Positions 23,597 to 48,110 of a stretch of DNA of 51,440 nt are shown here, piece by piece. The notes under the pieces were generated by a model. The model was not told the origin of the DNA and searched no databases. It saw only the letters and a program-made list of their open reading frames with translations. Where the stretch lies: contig NZ_JAEHFY010000023.1 in assembly GCF_016623585.1 (NCBI RefSeq), positions 1 to 51,440 on the forward strand, written 5' to 3'. Every line of letters begins with the position of its first letter. Within the stretch, counting starts at the first letter, position 1. The stretch is from Pedobacter segetis. GTDB lineage: Bacteria > Bacteroidota > Bacteroidia > Sphingobacteriales > Sphingobacteriaceae. The translations under genes were made by a program, and so were the position numbers.

Positions 23597-24181
23597 TTAA
23601 ACTAAAAAAACCCTTAAGCTGCGTGGACCATGGGCACCTAAAACCAAGCTTTGCTCAATATCAGCAGTTTTTGATGGGCCTGCTATAAACGTTCCGTAGC
23701 TGTATTTTTTTTTGCCGATGAGTTGGTAAGCATGATGCATCGTAGGGACGATCTTTTCTTTCTCTACAATAAACACTAAATGTTGCGGGATAAACGGCAG
23801 CACTCTTTCCTTAAATAATTCATCATCCACCCAACTGGCACCATTCTCTGCCACAGCAAAATGAGTGGGTAAAATCATCAATTCAACATCTGCCAATTCA
23901 TGGTTATCTAAACCGCTAAAGGGTTTGGCTATTTCATCAAATTCTTTCAAAGTAGATACTACTCTTACTTTTTCTGTTTCAAAATCTGCCTTCAAATGAT
24001 GAATAATTTCCTGATATTTATTTACCTGAAATACTTTAGCTCCGATGCCCTCAATTACTCGGGTAAATTCGGCCACCAAATCCTGATTTTCTACTTCAAG
24101 TAAATGGGTGATATCCGGCAAGGCTAATAGCTCGGGCTGATTTTCTTTTACAGCATTTAATATACAGGCTCTGCTATTCAT
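23597..24181 (-). CDS. lutC: LutC-type LUD-domain subunit of L-lactate oxidation
   Basis: This 194-residue LUD-domain protein is the third component of the LutABC L-lactate oxidising complex. Conserved LUD features include the N-terminal 'VEVEN'-like region, 'ADVELMILPTHFAVAENGAS' (the FAVAENG motif shared with LutB) and 'GPSKTADIEQSLVLGAHGPR' near the C-terminus. Its start overlaps the lutB stop as ATGA, so translation is coupled. It is the last gene of the fucose series; in this setting the lactate would come from cleavage of the diketo-fuconate intermediate. A clean terminator was not found right after it. Confidence 0.88.
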   Translation of the reverse strand: MNSRACILNAVKENQPELLALPDITHLLEVENQDLVAEFTRVIEGIGAKVFQVNKYQEIIHHLKADFETEKVRVVSTLKEFDEIAKPFSGLDNHELADVELMILPTHFAVAENGASWVDDELFKERVLPFIPQHLVFIVEKEKIVPTMHHAYQLIGKKKYSYGTFIAGPSKTADIEQSLVLGAHGPRSLRVFLV

Positions 24182-25548
24182 TTTGTTCTATTTTTTTGAT
24201 ACCACTCGCCAAATGAACTTTTCGGAACTGCTGGCATTTCTCTTTGATGATACCATGGATTAAACCTGTTTTGAGCAATAAATGGCGCATATTTTAACGT
24301 TGTTCTGGCTGCTTTACCCGCTAAGTGGTATAAGGTTGGCGAAGCCAAAGTTTTCGCCATCAGTTGCATAGACAAAGCTTTTTTTGCATCTACATATCCT
24401 TCTTTAACCAAAACCTGTCGCCATTTATAGAGCTGCTCGTGGATGTCTATCTTTACCGGGCAAACATTACTGCATGAGCCGCACAATGTGGACGCAAATG
24501 GCAAATCTGCATGTTTGGCCATATCCAAATTTGGGGATAAGATAGAACCAATAGGGCCAGCAATCACGCTATGATAACTATGTCCACCACTTCTTCTATA
24601 CACTGGGCAGGTATTAAAACAAGCAGAACATCTGATACATTTTAAGGAGTTTCTGAAATCTGGGCGCCCCAATTGTTTAGTTCTTCCATTATCAACCAAT
24701 ACAATATGTAGTTCTTTTCCTTTTCTGGGTTTAGCAAAATGACTGGAATAGGTTGTTACAGGTTGCCCTGTAGCACTTCTGGCTAATAACCTCAAAAAAA
24801 CTGATAGATGCCCTCTTTTAGGGATAATCTTTTCTATCCCCATGCAAGCGATATGGATATCCGCTAAATGAACGCCCAGATCTGCGTTTCCTTCGTTGGT
24901 GCAGACTACAATTTCTCCAGTTTCTGCCACGGCAAAATTCACTCCTGTTAGAGCGGCTCTTCTGGTAAGGAAAACATCCCTAAGATGTTGTCTTGCTGCT
25001 TCTGTTAATACCTGAGGATCTGCATTTCCTTCTGGTGTTCCCAGATGTTCATGAAATAACGCTCCAATCTCTTCCTTTTTTTTGTGAATACAAGGCAAAA
25101 CGATATGACTTGGGGGCTCCTTTGCCAATTGAACAATGCGCTCTCCCAAATCAGAATCTATTACCTCAATGCCTCTATCTTCTAAGTAATGGTTTAAGTG
25201 GCATTCTTCGGTAAGCATAGATTTACTTTTTACCATTTTGCTGATCCCTTGTTTTGCCAGTAAATCATACACAATCTCGTTATGCTCTTGTGCGTCTTTA
25301 GCCCAATGGATTTGGATGCCATTGGCTTTGGCATTTAGCTCAAATTCCTCTAAATAATTGTGCAGATTTGATAAGGTATGATTTTTAATTTGTGAGGCCG
25401 CTTCACGTAAGGCTTCCCATTGAGGGATTTGCTTAGACGCTTTATCCCGCTTTTGCCTGATGAACCAAAGCGTTTCATCATGCCAATCTACCCGATCTTC
25501 GTCTTGATTAAATACTTTTGAATTCGCTGCGTGATCTATCGTTTTCAT
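24178..25548 (-). CDS. lutB: LutB-type iron-sulfur subunit of L-lactate oxidation
   Basis: The protein is about 456 residues from the ATG at 25548. The frame stays open upstream to 25638, but 25548 overlaps the lutA stop as ATGA and gives the normal family length. The order is a LUD domain ('GVNFAVAETGEIVVCTNEGN'), then two 4Fe-4S sites, CIRCSACFNTCP (Cys304, 307, 310, 314) and CGSCSNVCP (Cys356, 359, 363), as in Bacillus LutB. It is cytoplasmic. It passes electrons from lactate with LutA and LutC, and all cluster cysteines are present. Confidence 0.92.
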   Translation of the reverse strand: MKTIDHAANSKVFNQDEDRVDWHDETLWFIRQKRDKASKQIPQWEALREAASQIKNHTLSNLHNYLEEFELNAKANGIQIHWAKDAQEHNEIVYDLLAKQGISKMVKSKSMLTEECHLNHYLEDRGIEVIDSDLGERIVQLAKEPPSHIVLPCIHKKKEEIGALFHEHLGTPEGNADPQVLTEAARQHLRDVFLTRRAALTGVNFAVAETGEIVVCTNEGNADLGVHLADIHIACMGIEKIIPKRGHLSVFLRLLARSATGQPVTTYSSHFAKPRKGKELHIVLVDNGRTKQLGRPDFRNSLKCIRCSACFNTCPVYRRSGGHSYHSVIAGPIGSILSPNLDMAKHADLPFASTLCGSCSNVCPVKIDIHEQLYKWRQVLVKEGYVDAKKALSMQLMAKTLASPTLYHLAGKAARTTLKYAPFIAQNRFNPWYHQREMPAVPKSSFGEWYQKNRTK

Positions 25549-26285
25549 GCTTTCCTCCCATTTAAAATCTCCGCAATATGAATGATCTTGGTTTTGCTTT
25601 TTTGTCTTCTCAGGATACCTTCTAAGTGCATCAAGCATGACATATCGATACCGGTAATATATTCTGCATGATGGCGCACATGATCATTCACTCTATCTAC
25701 TCCCATCTTGGCCGAAACGGCCTCTTCGGCTACACAAAAAGTACCTCCAAAACCACAGCATTCGTCTTTTCTATCCAACTCAATCATCTCAATATCTTTT
25801 ACCAAATTCAATAAATCCTGAGGTTTTGAGAACGGAGGTGCATTCAGTTCCGTCATCTGCGAAAGCTTTAACCCTCTTTGCCCATGGCAACTTTGGTGCA
25901 TCCCTACTTTATGCGGAAAACTTGCCTCCAGATGCTCAACCTTTAAAACATCGGTTAAAAAAGAAACCAATTCGTAAATGGTCTTACTTATTTTTTCCGC
26001 TTCCGAGGGATGCTCTTCATCATGCAGATGCTCTTTGATATGTAAAACGCAACTCCCAGATGGTGCTACGATGTAATCAAAACCTTTAAAGCTTTCTACA
26101 AAATTTTTGTTACAACCACTTGTTAAATGCTCAAATCCAGAGTTAGACATCGGCTGCCCACAACAGGTTTGGTTTTTTGGATAGCTTACCTCGCATCCAA
26201 ACTTCTCTAACAGTTCTAAAGTAGCTATCGCTACATTTGGATAAAACTGATCTACATAACACGGAACAAATAAGGCAACTTTCAT
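25545..26285 (-). CDS. lutA: LutA-type CCG-domain subunit of L-lactate oxidation
   Basis: This 246-residue protein has two cysteine-rich CCG domains, as in the LutA/GlpC/HdrB group: 'TCCGQPMSNSG' (Cys41-Cys42) and 'ECCGFGGTF' in the second half, each with upstream cysteines ('FVPCYVDQFYP', 'MHQSCHGQRG'). These hold unusual iron-sulfur clusters. It lies 14 bp after the SDR gene of the fucose pathway and overlaps lutB. Placing it within the fucose operon rather than with a lactate permease argues that it handles internally made L-lactate. Confidence 0.92.
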   Translation of the reverse strand: MKVALFVPCYVDQFYPNVAIATLELLEKFGCEVSYPKNQTCCGQPMSNSGFEHLTSGCNKNFVESFKGFDYIVAPSGSCVLHIKEHLHDEEHPSEAEKISKTIYELVSFLTDVLKVEHLEASFPHKVGMHQSCHGQRGLKLSQMTELNAPPFSKPQDLLNLVKDIEMIELDRKDECCGFGGTFCVAEEAVSAKMGVDRVNDHVRHHAEYITGIDMSCLMHLEGILRRQKSKTKIIHIAEILNGRKA

Positions 26286-26299
26286 TGAATGATCATTAT

Positions 26300-27088
26300 T
26301 TAAGCATTTGCGAGAGCTCTATCTAAATGGACGTAACCCCCATCAACATACAAAATCTGGCCAGTTGTATGACTAGATTGACTACTCAACAAAAAAGCAA
26401 CTGTGCTACCGATTTCATAAATGGTAGTCATTCTATTTTCTAAAGGAATATTAGCCGTTATTTTATCTAAAGTCTCTTTTGGGTTTTGTAAGGTTTTAAT
26501 CCAATTTTCATATTGGGGTGTCCAGCATTCAGCTACAACCAACGCATTCACACGGATTCCATATTTTAACATTTCAACAGCCCATTCTCTGGTTAAAGCA
26601 TTTCTCCCTCCATTTGCTGCGGCATAGGCAGAAGTATTTCCCTGACCAGTTTCTGCAGTTTTAGAGGAAATATTTACAATACTTCCCTTTGATTTCTTAA
26701 GTTCTGGCAAGGCATAATGTGCCATTAAATAATAGTGGACCAGATTTCTGTGCAGACTTAACATAAAACCCTCATAAGAACCATGCTCTAGCCCTACGCC
26801 ATCGTTTAACCCTGCATTGTTTACCAAACCATCAATTTTGCCAAATTCTTTAATCACAGACTGAACAGCTTTTTCACATACTTTAGGATCGGTTAATTCT
26901 GCCTCAATACCAAAAGCTTGACCATTTAAAGAATTGATCTGATCAATTGCCTTTTGGTTATCCTCTTTTTTTCTTCCAATGATCACTGCTATTGCACCTT
27001 CCTTTGCTACGGTCTCGGCAATTCCATATCCTATGCCTTTGGCTCCTCCTGTAATGATAATGACCTTATCTTTTAGATGTAAATCCAT
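26300..27088 (-). CDS. SDR oxidoreductase, probable L-fucose dehydrogenase
   Basis: This 262-residue classical short-chain dehydrogenase has the cofactor motif TGGAKGIG (about residues 13-20), NNAG, the serine pair before 'SSKTAETGQGN' and a C-terminal 'TGQILYVDGGYVHLDRAL'. The family would oxidise L-fucose to its lactone with NAD(P), step 1 of the pathway. The assignment between this SDR and the one at 30114-30875 rests on the latter's closer look to 2-keto-3-deoxy-fuconate dehydrogenase. The active-site YxxxK reads Tyr-Ala-Ala-Ala-Asn here, so the usual catalytic Lys is replaced. It is 6 bp after the lactonase gene and 14 bp before lutA. Confidence 0.65.
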   Translation of the reverse strand: MDLHLKDKVIIITGGAKGIGYGIAETVAKEGAIAVIIGRKKEDNQKAIDQINSLNGQAFGIEAELTDPKVCEKAVQSVIKEFGKIDGLVNNAGLNDGVGLEHGSYEGFMLSLHRNLVHYYLMAHYALPELKKSKGSIVNISSKTAETGQGNTSAYAAANGGRNALTREWAVEMLKYGIRVNALVVAECWTPQYENWIKTLQNPKETLDKITANIPLENRMTTIYEIGSTVAFLLSSQSSHTTGQILYVDGGYVHLDRALANA

Positions 27089-27094
27089 AATATT

Positions 27095-27928
27095 TTAAAT
27101 TAATTGATAGTATTTAGCAGCATTTCGTCCCCAGAATTTCTCTTGTTCATCTCTAGATAACTGCTTAGTATAATATTCCGCTATTTGAGCTACTTGTTGA
27201 TAATTTCCTGCTAAATTGCAAACTGGCCAGTCTGAACCGAATAACACTCTATTAGAACCAAAGGCATTAAAAACAACGTCTAAATAAGGTTCAAAATCTT
27301 CATATTTCCAGTTTTTCCAATCTGCCTCTGTAACCATTCCTGAAATTTTACAACACACATTCTCATGTTCTGCCAAAGCGGATATATCTTTTCTCCACTG
27401 GTCTATTTCTCCAATTTTGATCATCGGCTTAGACAAATGATCAAGCACAAAAATCTGATTTGGAAACCTAGACACCAATTCTTTAGCAAAACAGAGCTGA
27501 TCAGTGAATATCAAAACCTCATATAAAAATTGATGATCATCCAAAGCTTTTAGTCCATCAAGAAAGGTTTTGTGTAACATTAGGTCTCTAGGGTTTTTAT
27601 CCTGAAGGATGTACCTGAAACCTTTCATTTTTTCGTATTGGCTATAAAACTCTATTCTGGATGCTACGCTTTTATCAAAAAAGTTAACCCAACCTATTAC
27701 CCCTTTAATAAAATCATTTTCAGAGGCTAGCTCCAACAAAAAAGTATTTTCATCTTCATGCTCATCTGCCTGTACGGCAATGCACCCGTTAAATTTTTTT
27801 TCATGAAGTAATGGCTGCAAATCCTTAGGCATAAAATCTCTTCGGATCACATTCATTTCAGAATTTATCCATGAATGCTTGACGGGATCAAACTTCCAAA
27901 AATGCTGATGAGCATCAATTTTTAGCAT
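27095..27928 (-). CDS. Amidohydrolase, probable L-fuconolactonase
   Basis: This 277-residue TIM-barrel amidohydrolase (COG3618 type) opens L-fucono-lactone to L-fuconate, step 2. Metal-site motifs are 'KIDAHQHFW' (His7, His9), 'IFVLDHLSKP' with its His, and 'VLFGSDWPV' with the catalytic Asp near the C-terminal end. 'GFRYILQDKNPRD' is also typical of the group. There is no signal peptide. The ATG lies inside the end of the FAH-hydrolase gene (14-bp overlap), so the two are translated together. A rhamnonolactonase role cannot be excluded by sequence alone, but the FucP and fucosidase context favours fucose. Confidence 0.8.
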   Translation of the reverse strand: MLKIDAHQHFWKFDPVKHSWINSEMNVIRRDFMPKDLQPLLHEKKFNGCIAVQADEHEDENTFLLELASENDFIKGVIGWVNFFDKSVASRIEFYSQYEKMKGFRYILQDKNPRDLMLHKTFLDGLKALDDHQFLYEVLIFTDQLCFAKELVSRFPNQIFVLDHLSKPMIKIGEIDQWRKDISALAEHENVCCKISGMVTEADWKNWKYEDFEPYLDVVFNAFGSNRVLFGSDWPVCNLAGNYQQVAQIAEYYTKQLSRDEQEKFWGRNAAKYYQLI

Positions 27929-28766
27929 ATGCTACCACACTTTGTTTAGCGGTTCCTAAACCATCAATGCCTAACTCCATCACATCTCCTTCTTTCAGAT
28001 AAATTGGAGGTTTAAAGCCTAATCCCACGCCATGAGGAGTACCGGTTGAAATGACATCGCCAGGTAAAAGCGTCATAAACTCGCTTAAATAAGAAACAAG
28101 ATAGGAGACATTAAAAATAAAATCATCAGTATTGCCGTCCTGCATCATTTGGTCATTTACTTTAAGCCATAAGTGTAAATGATTAGGATTAGGAATTTCA
28201 TCTTTAGTTGCAAGCCATGGGCCAAGTGGAGCAAAAGTATCACAACCTTTACCTTTTGCCCATTGCCCACCACGCTCTAATTGAAATGCCCGTTCGCTGA
28301 TATCATTATGCAAGACGTATCCGGCAACATAATCCAGAGCATCTTCTTTTGAAACATAGCTAGCCTTTTTCCCAATCACAAAAGCCAATTCAACTTCCCA
28401 ATCTGTTTTTAAAGAGCCTTTTGGTAGCATCACCTCATCATAAGGCCCTACCATTGAAGTTGTAGATTTAAAGAAAATGATGGGTTCTGCAGGGATTGGC
28501 GCATTGGTTTCTTTAGCATGTTTAGCGTAATTAAGACCGATACACACCATTTTTGAAGGGCGAGCAACCGGACTTCCCCATCTCTCATTAGTATCAATTT
28601 CTTGCAATTGTTGTGTTTTAAAAATTTCTTGGAGCTGCTTTAATCCTCCGTTTTCAAAGAATTCTTCGTTATAATCTTTTATAAAAGGCGATACATCATA
28701 TCTTTTATCTTTTATCATTATACCTGGTCTTTCTTTCCCAAGCTTGCCAAATCGAATCAATTTCAT
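27915..28766 (-). CDS. FAH-family hydrolase, probable 2,4-diketo-3-deoxy-L-fuconate hydrolase
   Basis: This 283-residue fumarylacetoacetate-hydrolase-fold protein has conserved blocks 'VCIGLNYAKHAKETNAPIP', 'DWEVELAFVIGK' (metal Glu residues), 'YVLHNDISERAFQLERGGQW' and 'GDVISTGTPHGVGLGFKPP'. In the oxidative fucose pathway this family cuts the 2,4-diketo acid to pyruvate and L-lactate, the last step. It sits 12 bp after the GH29 gene and overlaps the lactonase gene. Close relatives act on the rhamnose-derived diketo acid, so the specificity is taken from context. Confidence 0.8.
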   Translation of the reverse strand: MKLIRFGKLGKERPGIMIKDKRYDVSPFIKDYNEEFFENGGLKQLQEIFKTQQLQEIDTNERWGSPVARPSKMVCIGLNYAKHAKETNAPIPAEPIIFFKSTTSMVGPYDEVMLPKGSLKTDWEVELAFVIGKKASYVSKEDALDYVAGYVLHNDISERAFQLERGGQWAKGKGCDTFAPLGPWLATKDEIPNPNHLHLWLKVNDQMMQDGNTDDFIFNVSYLVSYLSEFMTLLPGDVISTGTPHGVGLGFKPPIYLKEGDVMELGIDGLGTAKQSVVAYAKN

Positions 28767-28778
28767 GCTTATTTTAAT

Positions 28779-30104
28779 TTACTTCAATGTAAGTTGAATA
28801 ATGGTATCTATATTATTTTTAGGAATGCCATCTAAATAAAGTGTTAGTTCACTCTTATTTTGCTTAAATTTTACCTTCTCATTGGTTCCCATTAATACGC
28901 AACTTCTAATCTTGCCCTTTATATCTTCAATACTAATATTAGCTTGTGATGGATCTAAAAGATGAACATAAAGGATTTGATCTTTTGCTGTTACAACACC
29001 CCAATCTTGAGGGGGTACAATGTTTCCACGAGTTCCGTAAATACTCTCACCATATTTTGCCATCCATTTGCCCACTTCCTTTAAAGTATCCTGAAATTCT
29101 TGCTGAATTACGCCATTAGGCTGAGGCCCTACATTTAACAAAAAATTGGCATTTCTGCCCGCAGCATTTACCAGATAATGAATGAGCTGGGGAACCGTCT
29201 TGTAATTGTTATCTTTAATGTTAAAACCCCAAGATTTATTCATGGTTTCGCAAGTTTCTAAGGGGAGTTGATCCGATACTTTTCCTATGCTAAAGCCTGA
29301 TTTATTCTGCCCAGGAAGATCTTGTTCAAACATCTGAAAATCCTCGCCTGGCATGGGCGTTAAGTGATGATTATTTCCAATTAAACATTGAGGTTGCAAT
29401 TGATGGATTAACGCATATATCTCGGAAATGTGCCAATCTACCCTTGGTGAATGATCTACAGCATTTTTGGGTCCACTTTCATCCCAATATCCATCAAACC
29501 AAATTCCATCGATTTTACCATAATTGCTCAGTAATTCTGTTAACTGGTTTTTCATAAAGCTGATATAGCCATTCCAATTTCCTTTAACCGTACGCCCAGT
29601 GCCTTGCCCTGTTCTGCCTGTCCACCAAGAATAATCATCCCTTCTCCAATCAAGCAAAGAATAGTAAAGAAATATTTTCATGTGTTGTTTATGGCATTCA
29701 TCCACAATCATTTTTACCACGTCTTGATGGTAAGGTGTATTCATGATATTGAAATCAGAATATTTGGTATCCCACATACTGAAACCATCATGATGACGGG
29801 TGATAAGCGTAATGTATTTCATCCCTGCGTTTTTTGCCATACTTACCCAAGCGTGTGCATCAAACTGGGTGGGATTAAAAAAGCTCATCAGTTTAGTATA
29901 ATCCTTTACAGGGATGTTCTCATTATTCATTACCCATTCTGCATGCCCCATAATACTAAAAACACCCCAATGGATAAACAATCCAAATTTAGCATCCTGA
30001 AACTGTTGACGAGCTTGAAGGTTTGTTGGAGAGGCAACATAGGTTTGTGCGTAACCACTATTAAAAATAAATGCGGTAAAAAAGCAAATCCATAATTTTT
30101 TCAT
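28779..30104 (-). CDS. GH29 alpha-L-fucosidase, inside the catabolic operon
   Basis: This 441-residue exported enzyme has a signal peptide ending GYAQ. The GH29 barrel is shown by 'AKFGLFIHWGVFS', 'YITLITRHHDGFSMWDTK', 'IFLYYSLLDWRRDDY' and the nucleophile strand 'KIDGIWFDGYWDE', where Asp204 is the predicted nucleophile. A small beta-sandwich follows ('LHVHLLDP'-like region near the end). It frees L-fucose from non-reducing ends, which FucP could then import. It lies 9 bp after an SDR gene and 12 bp before FAH, so the secreted enzyme is made with the cytoplasmic pathway. A second GH29 is at 46545-48110. Confidence 0.92.
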   Translation of the reverse strand: MKKLWICFFTAFIFNSGYAQTYVASPTNLQARQQFQDAKFGLFIHWGVFSIMGHAEWVMNNENIPVKDYTKLMSFFNPTQFDAHAWVSMAKNAGMKYITLITRHHDGFSMWDTKYSDFNIMNTPYHQDVVKMIVDECHKQHMKIFLYYSLLDWRRDDYSWWTGRTGQGTGRTVKGNWNGYISFMKNQLTELLSNYGKIDGIWFDGYWDESGPKNAVDHSPRVDWHISEIYALIHQLQPQCLIGNNHHLTPMPGEDFQMFEQDLPGQNKSGFSIGKVSDQLPLETCETMNKSWGFNIKDNNYKTVPQLIHYLVNAAGRNANFLLNVGPQPNGVIQQEFQDTLKEVGKWMAKYGESIYGTRGNIVPPQDWGVVTAKDQILYVHLLDPSQANISIEDIKGKIRSCVLMGTNEKVKFKQNKSELTLYLDGIPKNNIDTIIQLTLK

Positions 30105-30113
30105 ATCATTTGT

Positions 30114-30875
30114 CTAATTGTTTAATTTAATAAAGCCTCCATCAATAGGATAATCACATCCAGTTATGAAACCTGCCTCATCAGAACATAAATAAAGGGC
30201 TAAGGCTGCCACTTCTTCTGGTTTACCCATACGGCCAATTGGTTGGCTTTTTGATAACTTATCAAATATTTCTTCGTGATTATGCGGGTAATTTTTGGCG
30301 ATAAAACCATCTACAAATGGGGTATGTACTCTGGCCGGAGAAATGCTATTGCACCTGATATTTTGGTCTATATAATCTCTGGCTACAGACATGCTCATGG
30401 CATAAATGGCTCCTTTACTCATAGAATAGGCAAAGCGATCAGAAATACCTACCAAAGAGGCAATAGATGCTGTATTTAAGATTACACCGCCACCTTTCTT
30501 TTTCATCAAAGGAATTGCAGCATATAAACAGTTATAAGCTCCTTTTACATTCACTTGGTAAACTTTATCAAAATCTGCTTCCTCGGTGGTATCTGCTTTC
30601 CCAACATGGGCAATCCCCGCATTATTAATTAAAATATCGATTTTTGCAATCTGCTGAAAAACAGACACCATTTGCTTTTGATCTGCAACATCACAAATGT
30701 GTTTGAACGCTTTGCCAAATTGTTTGATTTCATTTACTGTTTCGTCGGCAAAAACTTCACTTCTATCCACAATATGAACTATGGCTCCTTGCCGAGCAAA
30801 AAGAAGAGCAATAGCTTTACCTATGCCACTTCCTGCTCCAGTAATTACCGCAGATTTTCCTTTTAAACTAAACAT
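30114..30875 (-). CDS. SDR oxidoreductase, probable 2-keto-3-deoxy-L-fuconate dehydrogenase
   Basis: This 253-residue classical SDR has TGAGSGIG (about residues 12-19), 'DILINNAG', the catalytic 'YSMSKGA' (YxxxK intact) and 'NIRCNSISPARVHTPFV'. The last resembles the BDH2/DHRS6-like group that includes 2-keto-3-deoxy-L-fuconate dehydrogenase of Xanthomonas. It would oxidise the C4 hydroxyl with NAD to give the 2,4-diketo acid, step 4. The GC-rich repeat lies between it and the dehydratase gene upstream; GH29 follows 9 bp downstream. Swapped roles with the SDR at 26300 are possible. Confidence 0.75.
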   Translation of the reverse strand: MFSLKGKSAVITGAGSGIGKAIALLFARQGAIVHIVDRSEVFADETVNEIKQFGKAFKHICDVADQKQMVSVFQQIAKIDILINNAGIAHVGKADTTEEADFDKVYQVNVKGAYNCLYAAIPLMKKKGGGVILNTASIASLVGISDRFAYSMSKGAIYAMSMSVARDYIDQNIRCNSISPARVHTPFVDGFIAKNYPHNHEEIFDKLSKSQPIGRMGKPEEVAALALYLCSDEAGFITGCDYPIDGGFIKLNN

Positions 30876-30924
30876 CTTTATTAATTAAGGTTGAATAATT
30901 TTCTTTTCTATATTTTTAAAGATT

Positions 30925-31026
30925 TGGGCGTTTTAACACGCTATCCACTCATACTGCACAGGCATTAGCCAATAGCCGGTATCCCTGCCCGTTCCGTTTA
31001 GGCGGGCGTTCCTATCGTTAACGCAA
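30925..31026. repeat. GC-rich REP/MITE-like intergenic element
   Basis: A compact GC-rich block sits in an AT-rich gap between two genes of one operon. It starts GGGCG, has CGCTATCC at about 30940-30946 and ends CCTATCGTTAACGCAA. It contains a strong hairpin with GCCCG at about 30987-30991 and CGGGC at about 31003-31007. From memory, this beginning-and-end pattern (GGGCG, GCTATCC, then CTAACGCAA) recurs as a dispersed intergenic element in many Bacteroidota genomes. No second copy is present in this window, so repeat status rests on that recollection. Confidence 0.55.
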
Positions 31027-32670
31027 CTATAAACTTACCCCTCTTTTCCATGGGATAAAATCATCCTGATTCAGCTTTACTGCTTTTGGAATTTCCTCTC
31101 CACTAGCTACTTTAATACAGTATTCCAAAATCTCTTCGCCCATTTGAGTGATACTTTTTTCACCAGTAATTACTCCTCCTGTATCAATATCAATAATATC
31201 ACTCATTCTTTTTGCCAATGCTGAATTAGTAGCCACCTTAATTACCGGGCAAACTGGGTTACCCGTTGGAGTGCCTAAACCGGTTGTAAACAAAATTAAG
31301 GTTGCACCACTGGCAGCTTTTCCTGTTGTAGCTTCTACATCATTACCAGGGGTACAAACTAGGCTTAAACCTAGTTTTGTAGCAGGCTCGGTATAATCTA
31401 ATACATCTACTACTGGAGAAGTTCCTCCCTTTTTTGCTGCTCCAGCGCTTTTTATTGCATCGGTAATTAGTCCATCTTTGATATTGCCGGGTGAAGGATT
31501 CATATAAAAACCCGATCCCACTGCATGAGCTTGAGAATCATAATCGGTCATTAAACGAATAAACTTTTCAGCAACGGGTTGATTAACACATCTATCAATC
31601 AGATTTTGCTCTACTCCGCATAATTCTGGAAACTCAGCTAATAACACTTTACCTCCCAAGCTTACCAATAAATCAGCGGTATAGCCAACCGATGGATTGG
31701 CAGAAATCCCGCTAAAACCATCACTTCCACCGCATTTTACCCCAACTATTAGTTTAGATAGAGGTGCCGGTTTACGTTCTATTTTGTTGATTTCTATTAA
31801 ACCCAAAAAAGTCTGTTTGATAGCATCTTTAATTAAAGCCTCTTCACTTTGTGTTTTCTGTTGCTCAAAAATATAAAGGGGTTTATCAAAATCTGGATTT
31901 CGGAATTTCAAATCATTTAAAAAATACTGCACTTGTAAATGCTGACAACCTAAGCTCAAAAGGGTAATTCCGGCAACATTTGGATGATCTGCATAGGCTG
32001 CCAACAGCTTACTTAATATATCCGAATCTTGCCTAGTACCTCCGCAACCACCCTGATGATTTAAGAATTTTATCCCATCAACATTTTTAAAATACCTATC
32101 CTTTAAGTTTGATTCAGAAAGTGAGGTATTGAAATCATCAATAGATTTACCTTCTTTAATTTCTTGCAATAGGGTTTTAGCAAAAATTTTGTATTTATCT
32201 GTTGTTGAATAGCCCAAAATATCATGTAAAGCTTCCTTGATTACATCTAAATTTCTATTCTCGCAAAAAACGGTAGGGATAAATAGCCAATAATTAGCAG
32301 TTCCTACTTGCCCATTTTTTCTATGATAGCCATTAAAGGTTCTATTTTCAAAAGTGTGGATGTCTGGTTGTTTCCATTTATAATCTACCTTTCTATAAAA
32401 GTATGGATCAGCAGCGTGTTTGGTGTTTTCTAGACTCATCCGCTCACCGCTTTTCACTTTATTTTGGAGTTTACCAACTAACACACCATACATCAATAAT
32501 TCGTCGCCAGCTTGCATATCATTAATAAAGAATTTATGCTTGGCGGGGATGTTTTCTTTAATGATGATGTTTTGGTTCCCAAAATTAAATTCCCTGCCTA
32601 CTTCTAAATCCTGAAGTGCTACCAACACATTGTCTTTTGGGTCTATCTGTAAAAAAAAACTTTTATTCAT
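31027..32670 (-). CDS. UxaA/altronate-dehydratase-family enzyme, probable L-fuconate dehydratase
   Basis: This 547-residue enzyme is a full-length UxaA/GarD-type fusion. It has a small N-terminal SAF-like domain (about residues 1-100, 'VLVALQDLEVG', 'HKFFINDMQAGDELLMYG') joined to a large dehydratase domain with 'NGQVGTANYWLFIPTVFCENRN', 'FLNHQGGCGGTRQDS', 'VGVKCGGSDGFSGISANPSVG' and 'TTGLGTPTGNPVCPVIKVATN'. The cysteines fit the metal site. In this operon it would dehydrate L-fuconate to 2-keto-3-deoxy-L-fuconate (step 3), as proposed for UxaA-like proteins in the Campylobacter jejuni fucose cluster. Altronate or another sugar acid is the alternative. It begins 2 bp after the mutarotase gene. 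Confidence 0.82.
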   Translation of the reverse strand: MNKSFFLQIDPKDNVLVALQDLEVGREFNFGNQNIIIKENIPAKHKFFINDMQAGDELLMYGVLVGKLQNKVKSGERMSLENTKHAADPYFYRKVDYKWKQPDIHTFENRTFNGYHRKNGQVGTANYWLFIPTVFCENRNLDVIKEALHDILGYSTTDKYKIFAKTLLQEIKEGKSIDDFNTSLSESNLKDRYFKNVDGIKFLNHQGGCGGTRQDSDILSKLLAAYADHPNVAGITLLSLGCQHLQVQYFLNDLKFRNPDFDKPLYIFEQQKTQSEEALIKDAIKQTFLGLIEINKIERKPAPLSKLIVGVKCGGSDGFSGISANPSVGYTADLLVSLGGKVLLAEFPELCGVEQNLIDRCVNQPVAEKFIRLMTDYDSQAHAVGSGFYMNPSPGNIKDGLITDAIKSAGAAKKGGTSPVVDVLDYTEPATKLGLSLVCTPGNDVEATTGKAASGATLILFTTGLGTPTGNPVCPVIKVATNSALAKRMSDIIDIDTGGVITGEKSITQMGEEILEYCIKVASGEEIPKAVKLNQDDFIPWKRGVSL

Positions 32671-32672
32671 TC

Positions 32673-33011
32673 CTAATTCTTGTTCAAATCAAATATCTTA
32701 TCCATCAGTACCCATTTCTCGCCTGATTTTGCAAAAGGCAAAGGCTGCTGGAATTTCCACATCAATTCTTCCCATTCTTGTACTTTTGGGTTTTTGTTAT
32801 CGGTTTCAACTTTCTTCTCAAAACTGAATTTTGAAGTTACTTCCATGATCATGAAAAGGCGGTTGCCCACTCTGTAAATCTCTAGGTTTTTGATTCCAGA
32901 TACCACAATACTATGGATGATCTGTGGCCAAACTTTTTGGTGCCAGTCTTCATAGGCTTTTATCAGTTCTTGGTCATCTACTAAATCAAGTGCAAAACAA
33001 TACCTTATCAT
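32673..33011 (-). CDS. RhaM-family mutarotase, probably for L-fucose
   Basis: This 112-residue small ferredoxin-like protein has the family pattern 'CFALDLVDDQELIKAYEDWHQKVWPQI', 'LEIYRVGNRLFMIMEV', 'WEELMWKFQQPLP' and 'KWVLMDKIFDL'. The His of DWH and the Tyr of EIYR fit the known active site. The family interconverts sugar anomers, which speeds entry to an anomer-specific dehydrogenase. It is annotated for rhamnose in enterobacteria, but members sit in fucose clusters of Campylobacter and Bacteroidota. Its ATG overlaps the fucP stop as ATGA, which favours fucose. Confidence 0.85.
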   Translation of the reverse strand: MIRYCFALDLVDDQELIKAYEDWHQKVWPQIIHSIVVSGIKNLEIYRVGNRLFMIMEVTSKFSFEKKVETDNKNPKVQEWEELMWKFQQPLPFAKSGEKWVLMDKIFDLNKN

Positions 33012-34267
33012 ATAATGGTTTTTAAAGGTTTTACTTTATACCCAAATGATGCAAAACAAAATATGACTATAAAACAGATCAAAGGCACAATATAACCTAC
33101 CTGAATGTTCTGAGCCACATCACTGATGTAGCCAAAAATTGGGGGTAAAATTGCACCTCCCACTATCGACATAATGATCAAACTACTTCCAAATTTAGTA
33201 TCCCCGCCTAAATCTTTAATGCCTAACGAAAAGATAGTAGGAAACATGATAGACATAAAAAATGCGATGCCTATAATGAGATATACTGCAACCATCCCCG
33301 TCAAGAATATGGCTAGAATTGATAAAGCCATACATATCAGACTATAGATCACTAACAACTTTACAGGTTTTATAAATCTCATGAAAAATGTTCCAACAAA
33401 TCTTCCTAGCATAAAAGCCATCCCTACACCAAAACCAGCATAGATAGCTGCTAATCCCTCGCTTATGCTAGAAGCTTTTATGGCATAAAGTATAAAAAAA
33501 CTAAATACACATACCTGTGCCCCTACGTAAAAAAACTGTGCCGCAACGGCCCAACTTAAATGCCGATGTTTTAATGCGTGAAAGACATTGGAAACCGAAG
33601 CCTCACCATCTCCATCTTTGATTTCAGGCAACTTCATAAAGTAAAAGATAATGGCAATAAATAAGATGATTGTCCCTAATATGAAATAAGGAGTTTTGAC
33701 AGATGCTGCCTCAGATGCCAGTGCAATTTGCCTAGCCGATGAACTCATTGTGCTTAAAACTGCGTCAGAATAGCTTTTAGTGAGAATTATTTTTCCTCCA
33801 ATAATAGGTGCCAAAGTTGCAGCTAAGCCATTAAATGATTGCGCCAAATTTAAACGCTGTACTGCCTTTTCTGGTGGGCCTAATAAAGATGCGTATGGAT
33901 TTGCCGCAGTTTCTAACGTAGCTAAACCACAGGCAATTACAAATAATGAAAGCAAAAAGAAAATATACATCTGTGTATTTGCCGATGGGATAAACAAATA
34001 TGAGCCAATGGCAAATAGTGATAAACCTGTTAAAATACCCGTTTTATATCCAAATTTTTTCATTAAAGCACCGGCAGGTAGTGCCATCACAAAATAGGCG
34101 ATAAAGACTGAGGAGTCTATCAAAGAAGCTTGCAAATTGGATAGACTAAACGCCCTTTTAAGGTGAGGGATTAAGATTGGATCAAGATTATGGACAAACC
34201 CCCACATAAAAAACAAGGAGGTGATCATAATAAAAGCAAACCTAGTAGAGGTTTTATTTTTGTTCAT
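33008..34267 (-). CDS. fucP: FucP-type L-fucose:proton symporter (MFS)
   Basis: This 419-residue inner-membrane transporter has about 12 transmembrane helices. The frame extends to a TTG at 34273, but the ATG at 34267 is preferred. FucP family blocks are present: 'MWGFVHNLDPILIPHLKRAF', 'ALPAGALMKKFGYKTGI', 'LATLETAANPYASLLGPPE' and 'RLNLAQSFNGLAATLAPIIGG'. The Glu of LETAANP and an Asp in HNLDP lie in positions used for proton and sugar coupling in E. coli FucP. It is the first gene of the minus-strand fucose series and is divergent from the IclR regulator. Some relatives take glucose or galactose, but the operon supports fucose. Confidence 0.9.
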   Translation of the reverse strand: MNKNKTSTRFAFIMITSLFFMWGFVHNLDPILIPHLKRAFSLSNLQASLIDSSVFIAYFVMALPAGALMKKFGYKTGILTGLSLFAIGSYLFIPSANTQMYIFFLLSLFVIACGLATLETAANPYASLLGPPEKAVQRLNLAQSFNGLAATLAPIIGGKIILTKSYSDAVLSTMSSSARQIALASEAASVKTPYFILGTIILFIAIIFYFMKLPEIKDGDGEASVSNVFHALKHRHLSWAVAAQFFYVGAQVCVFSFFILYAIKASSISEGLAAIYAGFGVGMAFMLGRFVGTFFMRFIKPVKLLVIYSLICMALSILAIFLTGMVAVYLIIGIAFFMSIMFPTIFSLGIKDLGGDTKFGSSLIIMSIVGGAILPPIFGYISDVAQNIQVGYIVPLICFIVIFCFASFGYKVKPLKTII

Positions 34268-34306
34268 GCGCAAAATAATTGGTTATCAAAAGAAATAAAT
34301 AATACT

Positions 34307-34328
34307 ATATAAAGCAAAAACTTTATAT
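34307..34328. promoter_or_regulatory. Perfect dyad between fucP and the IclR gene, candidate operator
   Basis: ATATAAAG at 34307-34314 and CTTTATAT at 34321-34328 form a perfect 8-bp inverted repeat with a 6-nt A-rich spacer. It lies midway in the 94-bp gap between divergent starts. IclR proteins bind palindromes of about this size in shared promoters, so it is the best candidate site for the neighbouring regulator to control both directions. Confidence 0.55.
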
Positions 34329-34361: not shown

Positions 34362-35090
34362 ATGATGATTCAAGTGTTAAATAGAGCTATAGACATTTTA
34401 GAATATGTAGCAGAAATGGCCGATGAACCTAAATTAATGGGTAAAATCGCAAAAGATCTGAATTTAAATTTAGGAACCTGTGCAAACATTATAAAAACAT
34501 TGGTGAGCCGTGGTCTTCTAAAAAGAGCTGATCATGAAAAAGGTTATTTAATTGGAGATTTGATTACTGAAATCAATAATGGAAGTTTAGGGTATAAATC
34601 TTTAATAGATAGTGCAACTCCAATTCTAAGCCAAATTACAGATGATATCAAAGAAAATTGCTTGATTGCAATTCTAAAAAAAGATAAGAGGCAAGTGATC
34701 ATCAATAAGACTTGTAATCAGTTGATTCAGGCAACCACCCCAATAGAAAAATCAGCATATGATTCTTCTACTGGGAGGCTATTGATAGCTTTATTAACTG
34801 ATAAAGCTATTCAATCACACATTAATCAATATGGTTTACCTCATAAGGAAGTTTGGTCTCTGGCAGCATCTAGGGTTGGGCTTTTTGAACAGATACAAAT
34901 CATCAGGAATCAAGGTTATGCGCTAATTGAAGATAGTGTGCAGGTGGTTGGTGTTGCGGTGCCAATTTATAAAAACCAAAAGGTGATTGCCAGCTTTAGC
35001 ATTTATCTTCCTTCCTTCAGGTTTAATACAGAAATAAAAGCCAACATGATATCATTAGCAATCGAAGCAGGTAAATCACTATCAGTCTAA
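34362..35090 (+). CDS. IclR-family transcriptional regulator of the fucose operon
   Basis: This 242-residue regulator has an N-terminal winged helix-turn-helix ('VLNRAIDILEYVAEMADEP', 'MGKIAKDLNLNLGTCANIIKTLVSRGLLKR', about residues 4-60) and a C-terminal GAF-like IclR effector domain ('SSTGRLLIALLTD', 'GYALIEDSVQVVGVAVPIY'). It is divergent from fucP across 94 bp that hold a perfect dyad. The Campylobacter fucose cluster is likewise controlled by an IclR-type protein. The effector is probably a pathway sugar or acid. It is the only DNA-binding regulator in the window. Confidence 0.88.
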   Translation: MMIQVLNRAIDILEYVAEMADEPKLMGKIAKDLNLNLGTCANIIKTLVSRGLLKRADHEKGYLIGDLITEINNGSLGYKSLIDSATPILSQITDDIKENCLIAILKKDKRQVIINKTCNQLIQATTPIEKSAYDSSTGRLLIALLTDKAIQSHINQYGLPHKEVWSLAASRVGLFEQIQIIRNQGYALIEDSVQVVGVAVPIYKNQKVIASFSIYLPSFRFNTEIKANMISLAIEAGKSLSV

Positions 35091-46544: not shown

Positions 46545-48110
46545 TTACATTTCTACTCTTAAAACCTGAATTTTATCTGATACTGGCATTCCAGAAATAG
46601 GAATAGTTATTTTTCCGTTTTGGGTTTGATAATTAATAGGTTGATTATTAGACATCAGTACAACTTTTCTAACCTTTAAAGGGGTACTAAAATCAATGAA
46701 CTTAGCGCTTTGATTTGGTAAAATAAATAGGTATCTAAAGCTAGCACCATCTGTAGTTGCAGGGACTGATGCCGACTCATTATCATTTAGTGCGGTTACT
46801 TTAAACAAAGATGTTTTATAGATTTTCATCCAATCTTCAAAATACTTAAGCCTTTCATTCATCCCTGCAGAGAATACACCATTTTTATTAGGCCCAAAAT
46901 TCAGCAAGTAATTGGTGTTTCTAGATCTACAAAGAATTAAATCTGTCAAAAGTTTATTTGCAGGCTTTAAAGGATTCTTTGTAAATCCCCAACCTGAGTT
47001 TGCAACTGTGGTACAAAGTTCTGCCCATTGGTCTTGTTTCTCTTTTGGAAGATTTTGATCTGACTCAAAAGTTTTATAATCTCCATAACCAAAAAATCTT
47101 GGGCTAACCACTATCCCGGGCTGTAATTTACGTATCTCTTCCATGGTTATACTCTTTTTCCATGCAGAATTGCCAGATGGGATACTAGGTCTTCCGTCAA
47201 ACCAAATCATATCTATTTTGCCATAGTTACTTAATAATTCTGTAATCTGTCCTTTCACAAATACTGCTAAAGAATCATAATGAGCTTGTTTTTCCAACTC
47301 ATCCTTATCTATATATCGTGGTTTGAGGTTATAATCTACAAAAGGGATATTCTTATATTTTGTGGCGATACCTGGATATAAAAAGCTTTGATAATCTCTA
47401 CTAAAATACCAATCTGGGCCAGAAAAATATAACCCTACTTTTAATCCGTATTTACGACAAGCATCTACAAAAGGCTTAACCAAATCACGTCCTCCCATAA
47501 AGTTTTTAGTATTAAAATCGCCATACTTACTTGGCCAAAGCGCAAACCCGTCATGATGTTTTGTTGTTAACACCATATAGGTCATTCCAGCAGCTTTTGC
47601 AGCTTTTGCCCACGCTTCCGGATCATACTGTGATGGATTAAAAGACTTTGCTTGTTCCCAATATTCAGAAGGAGTAATACAGGAATTACTTTTTTCGCAA
47701 TTATTACCTGCGAAAAAGTTTCCCTTGGCAATAAACCGATCAATAGAATCTTGATCGAGCTTATTTTTGCTCCAACCAATTTGAGTCCCGGTCATCATCG
47801 GCCAGGAAAGATCTATTTCCTTTATGGAAGAAATACCCCAATGTATAAACATTCCGAAACCTGCATTTGAAAACCATTGCGCATCTGGATGCTGAGTATG
47901 TTGATATTTAACCGAATTATTTTGTACGATACCAATTTGCTCGTGTTGTTGTTTTACTTCTTCATTGTTTTTCGTTTTTTGCGCATAAATATCTGTTTGA
48001 GCAACAAAAAATAAGGAAAAAAACATAATTAAGCATCTTGAATTATTCCATTCAGGATACCTATTTATTAAATATTTGATTGGCGTGGTTAGATTTATCT
48101 TACTAAACAT
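46545..48110 (-). CDS. GH29 alpha-L-fucosidase, second copy
   Basis: This 521-residue exported enzyme has an unusually long N-terminus before the signal cleavage site (IYAQ, about residue 44). A start at the internal Met29 would leave a short signal without basic residues, so 48110 is kept. The GH29 barrel shows 'NAGFGMFIHWGISSI', 'YMVLTTKHHDGFALWPSK', 'VGLYFSGPDWYF' and 'KIDMIWFDGRPS' with predicted nucleophile Asp305. It has insertions (about residues 95-150) absent from the 441-residue GH29 and is clearly from another subgroup, so linkage preference probably differs. A small C-terminal beta domain is present. Confidence 0.9.
   Translation of the reverse strand: MFSKINLTTPIKYLINRYPEWNNSRCLIMFFSLFFVAQTDIYAQKTKNNEEVKQQHEQIGIVQNNSVKYQHTQHPDAQWFSNAGFGMFIHWGISSIKEIDLSWPMMTGTQIGWSKNKLDQDSIDRFIAKGNFFAGNNCEKSNSCITPSEYWEQAKSFNPSQYDPEAWAKAAKAAGMTYMVLTTKHHDGFALWPSKYGDFNTKNFMGGRDLVKPFVDACRKYGLKVGLYFSGPDWYFSRDYQSFLYPGIATKYKNIPFVDYNLKPRYIDKDELEKQAHYDSLAVFVKGQITELLSNYGKIDMIWFDGRPSIPSGNSAWKKSITMEEIRKLQPGIVVSPRFFGYGDYKTFESDQNLPKEKQDQWAELCTTVANSGWGFTKNPLKPANKLLTDLILCRSRNTNYLLNFGPNKNGVFSAGMNERLKYFEDWMKIYKTSLFKVTALNDNESASVPATTDGASFRYLFILPNQSAKFIDFSTPLKVRKVVLMSNNQPINYQTQNGKITIPISGMPVSDKIQVLRVEM

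Follow-up and report, generated by a model that had tools for sequence, protein, structure and literature searches.

The question raised by this locus is why three genes predicted to oxidize L-lactate should stand at the end of a gene series for the breakdown of L-fucose. The window, by which we mean the whole stretch of DNA analyzed, is a Pedobacter segetis contig of 51440 bases (NZ_JAEHFY010000023.1, the entire contig C15) from a genome of 3.84 Mb in 72 contigs, and the series occupies its minus strand from position 34267 down to 23597. Very probably these genes form a fucose-inducible operon with one IclR-family regulator, which would take L-fucose to two pyruvates with LutABC as the last step; from the sequence we infer the co-transcription, the induction, the substrates, the activities and the role of a palindrome in front of the first gene.

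The initial annotation had described eleven minus-strand genes with small gaps or overlaps, one 151-bp gap bearing a repeat, and a transporter, a mutarotase and a fucosidase in the same series. This is borne out by the open reading frame listing, the computed spacings, the repeat search and the presence of FucP, PF05336 and GH29 genes. The eleven genes are co-directional and are spaced, in order from fucP to lutC, by -4, 2, 151, 9, 12, -14, 6, 14, -4 and -4 bp, when fucP is taken to start with the ATG at 34267 (the list also offers a TTG upstream, at 34273) and lutB at 25548 (the list also offers a longer frame, starting at 25638). The 151-bp gap (30876-31026) holds a copy, at 30910-31020, of a dispersed repeat with 31 matches in the genome, its own copy included. 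A terminator in this gap was considered and rejected, as the terminator scan was empty there and the folding was unremarkable (z -0.49), the gap holding a dispersed repeat instead. The scan, a simple one, gave no minus-strand terminator-like site within 23597-34267, and it counts as weak evidence because 8 sites were found in total against 13.1 in shuffles. The order kdfD-GH29-FAH-fucL-fdh-lutABC was also found in locus L070 of the relatives, and because the same order recurs in other genomes the arrangement is not due to chance. A GH29 homolog likewise lies 3′ of kdfD in L070 and L046, and between the FAH and fucL genes in L171 and L173.

In the proposed pathway an exported GH29 alpha-L-fucosidase (28779-30104; PF01120, 331 bits; its N-terminus, judged by eye, resembles a signal peptide) would free L-fucose, which FucP, a predicted L-fucose:H+ symporter (33008-34267), would import with a proton. 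FucP passed TIGR00885 (374 bits, cut-off 280.4) and scored 355.5 bits, under the cut-off of 427, with a second FucP model, PRK10133. The mutarotase (32673-33011), of PF05336 type (103.5 bits; TIGR02625 gave 22.9 bits, far under its cut-off of 99.6), would supply the reacting anomer. The product of fdh (26300-27088), a short-chain dehydrogenase/reductase (SDR), would oxidize L-fucose to the lactone; with 405.5 bits against the NF052481 cut-off of 300 it belongs, at the level of family membership, to the L-fucose 1-dehydrogenases. The lactone would be opened to L-fuconate by an amidohydrolase-2 protein, the predicted L-fuconolactonase FucL (27095-27928; solved relative 4dlf, 195 bits), and a UxaA-type protein (31027-32670; PF20629 and PF04295), the predicted L-fuconate dehydratase, would give 2-keto-3-deoxy-L-fuconate. 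A second SDR (kdfD, 30114-30875), the predicted L-2-keto-3-deoxyfuconate 4-dehydrogenase, would oxidize C4 of this acid. Its best solved relatives are 8xwk, 8y4j and 8y11, by a narrow lead (160 against 153 bits for the next), which are L-2-keto-3-deoxyfuconate 4-dehydrogenase (L-KDFDH) entries according to the accessible part of PMC11199699, and its sole match over the cut-off among the NCBIfam matches listed is a broad "glucose 1-dehydrogenase" subfamily. The FAH-family hydrolase (27915-28766), predicted to act on L-2,4-diketo-3-deoxyfuconate, would split this diketo acid into pyruvate and L-lactate. Its clear first structure is 8gsr, an L-2,4-diketo-3-deoxyrhamnonate hydrolase (276 against 201 bits for the next), and the accessible part of PMC11199699 gives the fucose and rhamnose routes a common diketo intermediate. 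LutABC would finally oxidize L-lactate to pyruvate and pass the electrons to the respiratory chain, so that each fucose is predicted to give two pyruvates net, together with two NAD(P)H and an electron pair, with neither ATP use nor lactaldehyde. No match to the L-fucose isomerase family PF07881 was found in the genome.

It is improbable that the main substrate of the operon is L-galactose or D-arabinose, which belong to the same stereochemical series, and that fucose is a secondary one. Mutants of the Campylobacter jejuni fucose locus do lose growth on D-arabinose as well, according to the accessible part of PMC6946681, whereas in the window the GH29 fucosidase and the FucP match stand within the operon itself, and among these sugars lactate would be released only from the 6-deoxy sugar, which would give lutABC its reason to be there.

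The fuconate step is assigned to a protein of the D-altronate dehydratase (UxaA) family, and the genome holds a second UxaA on contig C2, 58% identical to the window copy, between a gene for tagaturonate reductase (572 bits, cut-off 359) and one for glucuronate isomerase (588 bits, cut-off 387). With this second copy in a uronate operon, the window UxaA is free for another substrate. D-Altronate and L-fuconate have the same configuration at C2-C4, and rhamnonate differs. A UxaA-type dehydratase family in L-fucose pathways is reportedly the subject, by its title, of a study by Watanabe from 2019 that PMC11199699 cites; a UxaA-type dehydratase in a fucose pathway is a known solution. An enolase-type fuconate dehydratase was also considered: one PF13378 match alone exceeds the cut-off, in a frame of 339 aa that lies on contig C11 away from the fucose genes, and the other match, on contig C72, is under it. 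In a tree of 46 UxaA rows and 2 outgroup rows the fucose-linked and uronate-linked copies interleave, with 11 fucose, 11 uronate and 1 untyped in one clade of 23 rows (support 96, starred) and 14 fucose-linked and 6 uronate-linked in another of 20 rows (support 85). A single clade of fucose-linked UxaA was rejected (approximately unbiased test, p 3.2e-5). If the operon context tells the function, these bacteria would have exchanged altronate and fuconate as the substrate of this family at least twice.

The last three genes of the series are adjacent and carry the domains of a LutABC system, namely two CCG domains in lutA (25545-26285; PF02754, 97 bits in 2 stretches), LUD and Fer4 domains in the iron-sulfur subunit gene lutB (24178-25548; PF02589, PF13183 and PF11870) and a LUD domain in lutC (23597-24181; PF02589, 74.5 bits). 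The name LutB rests on domains and gene order and its function is inferred; the nearest named LutB records among the matches listed are from Pedobacter and Pelobium (80-81%). The other close lutABC of the genome lies on contig C72 (L004:5166-14744) at the end of a series rhaT-rhaEW-rhaI-rhaB-lutABC, in which RhaT and RhaEW score above curated cut-offs, rhaI falls short of its own (503 of 647 bits), and rhaB, of the FGGY family, matches rhamnulokinase weakly. Its proteins are 81% (LutB), 80% (LutA) and 61% (LutC) identical to the operon copies, and this rhamnose operon would also yield L-lactate. As a second close lutABC is present, a single lut knockout could be masked. A lactate dehydrogenase dependent on flavin mononucleotide (FMN) was set aside for this genome, where no full-length FMN-dependent dehydrogenase was found and the two PF01070 matches are partial (97 and 42 of 350 positions, in frames of 510 and 501 aa; the first scores 25.8 against a cut-off of 24.9).

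The relatives show the same place filled in another way. In the sister cluster L149, with the order fucP-mutarotase-uxaA-kdfD-FAH-fucL-fdh, a gene for an LldD-type FMN-dependent dehydrogenase lies directly 3′ of fdh, and in L151, with the same order, it follows fdh and one inserted transporter gene. The LldD-type protein matches PF01070 with 394 bits; its best NCBIfam matches are L-lactate dehydrogenases, under their cut-offs, and among solved structures it is closest to L-lactate oxidase and mandelate dehydrogenase. An unrelated lactate oxidizer at the same place is what a common last step predicts, the substrate of the LldD-type protein being a prediction as well. Both types are found in one genome (G003), which has two fucose clusters, L150 ending in lutABC and L151 with the LldD-type gene.

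The linkage was further surveyed on a LutB tree of 84 rows, made up of the best 80 of at least 583 relatives with the second copy of L046, the window, L004 and L150. By adjacency 16 rows are fucose-linked, 29 rhamnose-linked, 1 linked to both and 38 to neither; among the fucose-linked rows, L058 lies on a short contig and is typed solely by a zinc dehydrogenase, and L078 has its nearest fucose gene at 3.4 kb. A single clade of fucose-linked LutB is not found. The fucose label requires 7 changes, of which starred branches force at least 6, on a tree made by a quick method with one-test support and with the second L046 copy as a long branch. In L046 a rhamnose-lutABC series and a lutABC-fucose series stand in a row, and in L093 one lutABC lies between rhamnose and fucose genes. 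UxaA matches were found in 59 of 120 genomes, from which 37 stretches were taken (the 25 most similar and a chosen few) and typed together with the window; these 38 comprise 20 fucose clusters, 17 uronate clusters and 1 untyped. A lactate oxidizer is present in four of the 20 fucose clusters (lutABC in the window and L150, LldD-type in L149 and L151), and the linkage of fucose genes with a lactate oxidizer is thus optional.

Two further variations were observed in fucose clusters of the relatives. An aldo/keto reductase gene (PF00248) lies in the fucose clusters L160 (5007-6017) and L093 (14420-15439), in whose stretches no fdh SDR was found, and this unrelated enzyme may replace the first step there. 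In the fucose clusters L053, L064 and L071 a zinc-dependent dehydrogenase gene lies between fucL and lutA; as no UxaA homolog was found in these loci, a dehydratase would need to be encoded at another place.

Upstream of fucP, a palindrome at 34307-34328, ATATAAAG-TTTTTG-CTTTATAT on the minus strand, with 8-bp arms and a 6-bp centre, was found by intergenic comparison as a candidate operator between iclR and fucP. It is the sole site of the window at up to 3 mismatches, where 0.04 would be expected for a pattern that was, however, drawn from this same site; three further genome sites lie within 3 mismatches, each at 3. An exact copy of its 20-bp core occurs in 8 of 197 loci, namely L149-L155 and the window's own L194. 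The palindrome of L150 equals that of the window; the inner G/C arm pair is A/T in L149 and L151-L155, and L152-L155 are without the outermost pair. No second site was found 5′ of lutA in the window at the same tolerance, and one palindrome with none before lutA fits one unit. The divergent gene iclR (34362-35090, plus strand) encodes an IclR-family protein (PF01614, 59 bits over 24; PF09339 slightly under its cut-off), and an IclR homolog stands near fucP in all seven clusters L149-L155, with two other frames between in L151. In L160 an IclR homolog is 40% identical and the palindrome core is not present. The divergent IclR-family protein is likely to regulate this operon, and the spacing and the palindrome agree with a single transcript. 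Neither the region upstream of fucP nor the 151-bp gap contains a full match to the Bacteroidota -33/-7 promoter pattern.

Several observations weigh against the proposed operon and its end product. The sole NCBIfam match of fucL, NF052480 (L-fucono-1,5-lactonase), gave 286 bits, under its cut-off of 400; the hydrolase gave 377 bits with NF053535, under 500; LutB gave 431.6 bits, just under the TIGR00273 cut-off of 444.8 and so short of the equivalog; and the GH29 and lutC products have no NCBIfam match. The product of fdh is without the active-site lysine of its solved relatives, and the 151-bp gap 3′ of uxaA interrupts an otherwise tight spacing. In 16 of the 20 UxaA-selected fucose clusters no lutABC or LldD homolog was found within the stretch. 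These clusters belong to 15 genomes, of which 9 have a LutB of at least 65% identity elsewhere; in the other six (G021, G033, G037, G055, G065 and G072) none is listed, and lactate must therefore be treated otherwise there.

Together with the 38 LutB rows near neither fucose nor rhamnose genes, these 16 clusters are what would favor lutABC as an independent neighbor for external lactate, placed beside the fucose genes by chance or convenience. We consider this very improbable in view of the 14-bp gap between fdh and lutA, a lutABC with no palindrome of its own, the recurrent linkage on the tree, the LldD-type swap and the paralog in the rhamnose operon. The initial annotation had proposed enzymes for fucose to pyruvate and L-lactate, with lutABC routing the lactate to pyruvate. 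The enzyme set is supported by family or nearest-structure matches for its steps; the routing, by the swap, the recurrent linkage, the paralog and the single candidate operator, and also by a genome in which neither an L-fucose isomerase family match nor a full-length FMN-dependent dehydrogenase was found. The linkage of fucose genes with lutABC, for which a survey of fucP-lutABC had been suggested, does recur among relatives on the LutB tree, but as an option that most UxaA-selected fucose clusters lack.

That the operon is an L-rhamnose acid pathway is scarcely credible, for although NF053535 is named for rhamnonate and PF05336 for rhamnose, the hydrolase cannot decide between the two sugars and its rhamnonate-based name is no argument because the diketo intermediate is common to both routes, the fdh product passes an L-fucose dehydrogenase cut-off, rhamnonate lacks the C2-C4 configuration common to D-altronate and L-fuconate, and rhamnose is set aside as the substrate because the genome has its separate rhamnose operon.

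The first dehydrogenase deserves attention for its active site. Its closest solved relatives, by sequence and by predicted fold, are 4gkb and 6drr, the latter being Cj0485/FucX of C. jejuni in the accessible part of PMC6946681. Where these read YCASKGAQ and YASAKAAQ, the window protein reads YAAANGGR, with Asn159 at the lysine position of the classical SDR motif YxxxK and Arg162 at +7. The motifs TGxxxGxG and NNAG, Ser142 and Tyr155 are kept; Asn159 and Arg162 do not vary across all 22 aligned rows, and Asn115 is kept in most. The loci gave 58 homolog rows with at least 45% identity, counting the window; they comprise 56 distinct sequences, as the genes of G037 and G033 come twice. Asn with Arg at +7 is found in 48 of these rows, and Lys with Gln, Ile or Val at +7 in 10; a branch with support of 99/95 has all the Asn rows on one side. 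A phylum sample of 296 genomes gave 47 matches in 43 genomes, of which 30 were read and 17 of lower identity were left out. Asn was found in 20 of the 30 (families f1, f36, f49, f50 and f53) and Lys in 10; of these, 16 Asn genes and 9 Lys genes have another fucose-type gene within about 1.5 kb. In the predicted structure (mean predicted local distance difference test score, pLDDT, 89.5; predicted template modeling score, pTM, 0.88) Tyr155, Asn159 and Arg162 all lie in the helix 153-172.

In the synthase domains of "complex" SDRs, a lysine stands in place of the tetrad asparagine, which the window protein and most of its aligned rows keep as Asn115. The idea that YxxxN is unprecedented was dropped, since YxxxN is the motif of these "complex" SDRs in the accessible part of PMC3144213. 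They likewise have Asn at the classical lysine position, whereas the window protein is a stand-alone predicted L-fucose dehydrogenase with YxxxK enzymes as its closest solved relatives; YxxxN would thus be unusual here with a precedent elsewhere. Any role of Arg162 is a guess. The chances stand about even for a joint claim: that an fdh clade in five families of the window's class dispenses with the SDR lysine, with Asn159 instead and Arg162, one helix turn on, helping to lower the pKa of Tyr155, and that lactate oxidation in the same bacteria is a plug-in, lutABC or LldD-type, repeatedly captured by deoxyhexose operons. Whether another residue can take the place of the SDR lysine in a sugar dehydrogenase that stands alone is a question for which this protein offers a natural test.

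The core pathway has already been published. The accessible part of PMC11199699 describes route 3, the non-phosphorylating L-fucose pathway FucM-A-B-C-F-G, with the same steps to pyruvate and L-lactate and clustered genes; unlike it, the window has an internal GH29 gene, a terminal lutABC and a YxxxN first dehydrogenase. The C. jejuni fuc locus likewise has FucP, a mutarotase, the dehydratase Cj0483, the SDR Cj0485/FucX and the hydrolase Cj0487, but it differs in a synthase of DapA type and in a second dehydrogenase, and the accessible part of PMC6946681 describes no lut genes; its Cj0485 keeps YxxxK, unlike the window protein. Lactate oxidation is likewise attached to a deoxyhexose pathway, taking lactate to pyruvate, in the RhaR regulons of certain Actinomycetales and Rhodobacterales, which include lldD or lldEFG and for which the extension to pyruvate is itself inferred in the accessible part of PMC3870299. 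Those regulons concern rhamnose and a phosphorylated route with RhaEW, whereas the window concerns L-fucose, a non-phosphorylated route and Bacteroidota; rhamnose operons with lldEFG are already published. The window genes resemble the LutABC/LldEFG system in three subunits in A-B-C order with CCG and LUD domains, and differ in being embedded in a sugar operon and in a LutB slightly under the TIGR00273 cut-off. No description of fucose genes with lut or lld was found in titles and abstract starts of the open-licence PMC literature; PMC6955870, in its accessible part, treats lactate and rhamnose clusters apart, and "fuconate" and "lutABC" have 0 occurrences in Price et al. 2022. As far as the open-licence PMC literature shows, fucose with lutABC is new. 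The proposed operon would allow environmental Bacteroidota to salvage the carbon of fucose completely, keeping both pyruvates in the cell and releasing no lactate to neighbors. The end product of the pathway has genomic evidence in the repeated attachment of unrelated lactate oxidizers to operons for fucose and rhamnose.

A mutarotase-like gene lies downstream of the rhamnose-lutABC operon on C72. A LutB-like protein of 41% identity (G000:C4, L005:9072-10457) passes TIGR00273 (459.8 over 444.8), unlike the operon LutB; L005 has no lutA or lutC match, and similar matches of 37-45% occur in many relatives. The window itself contains a second, distant GH29-type gene at 46548-47879, whose product is 29% identical to the operon GH29.

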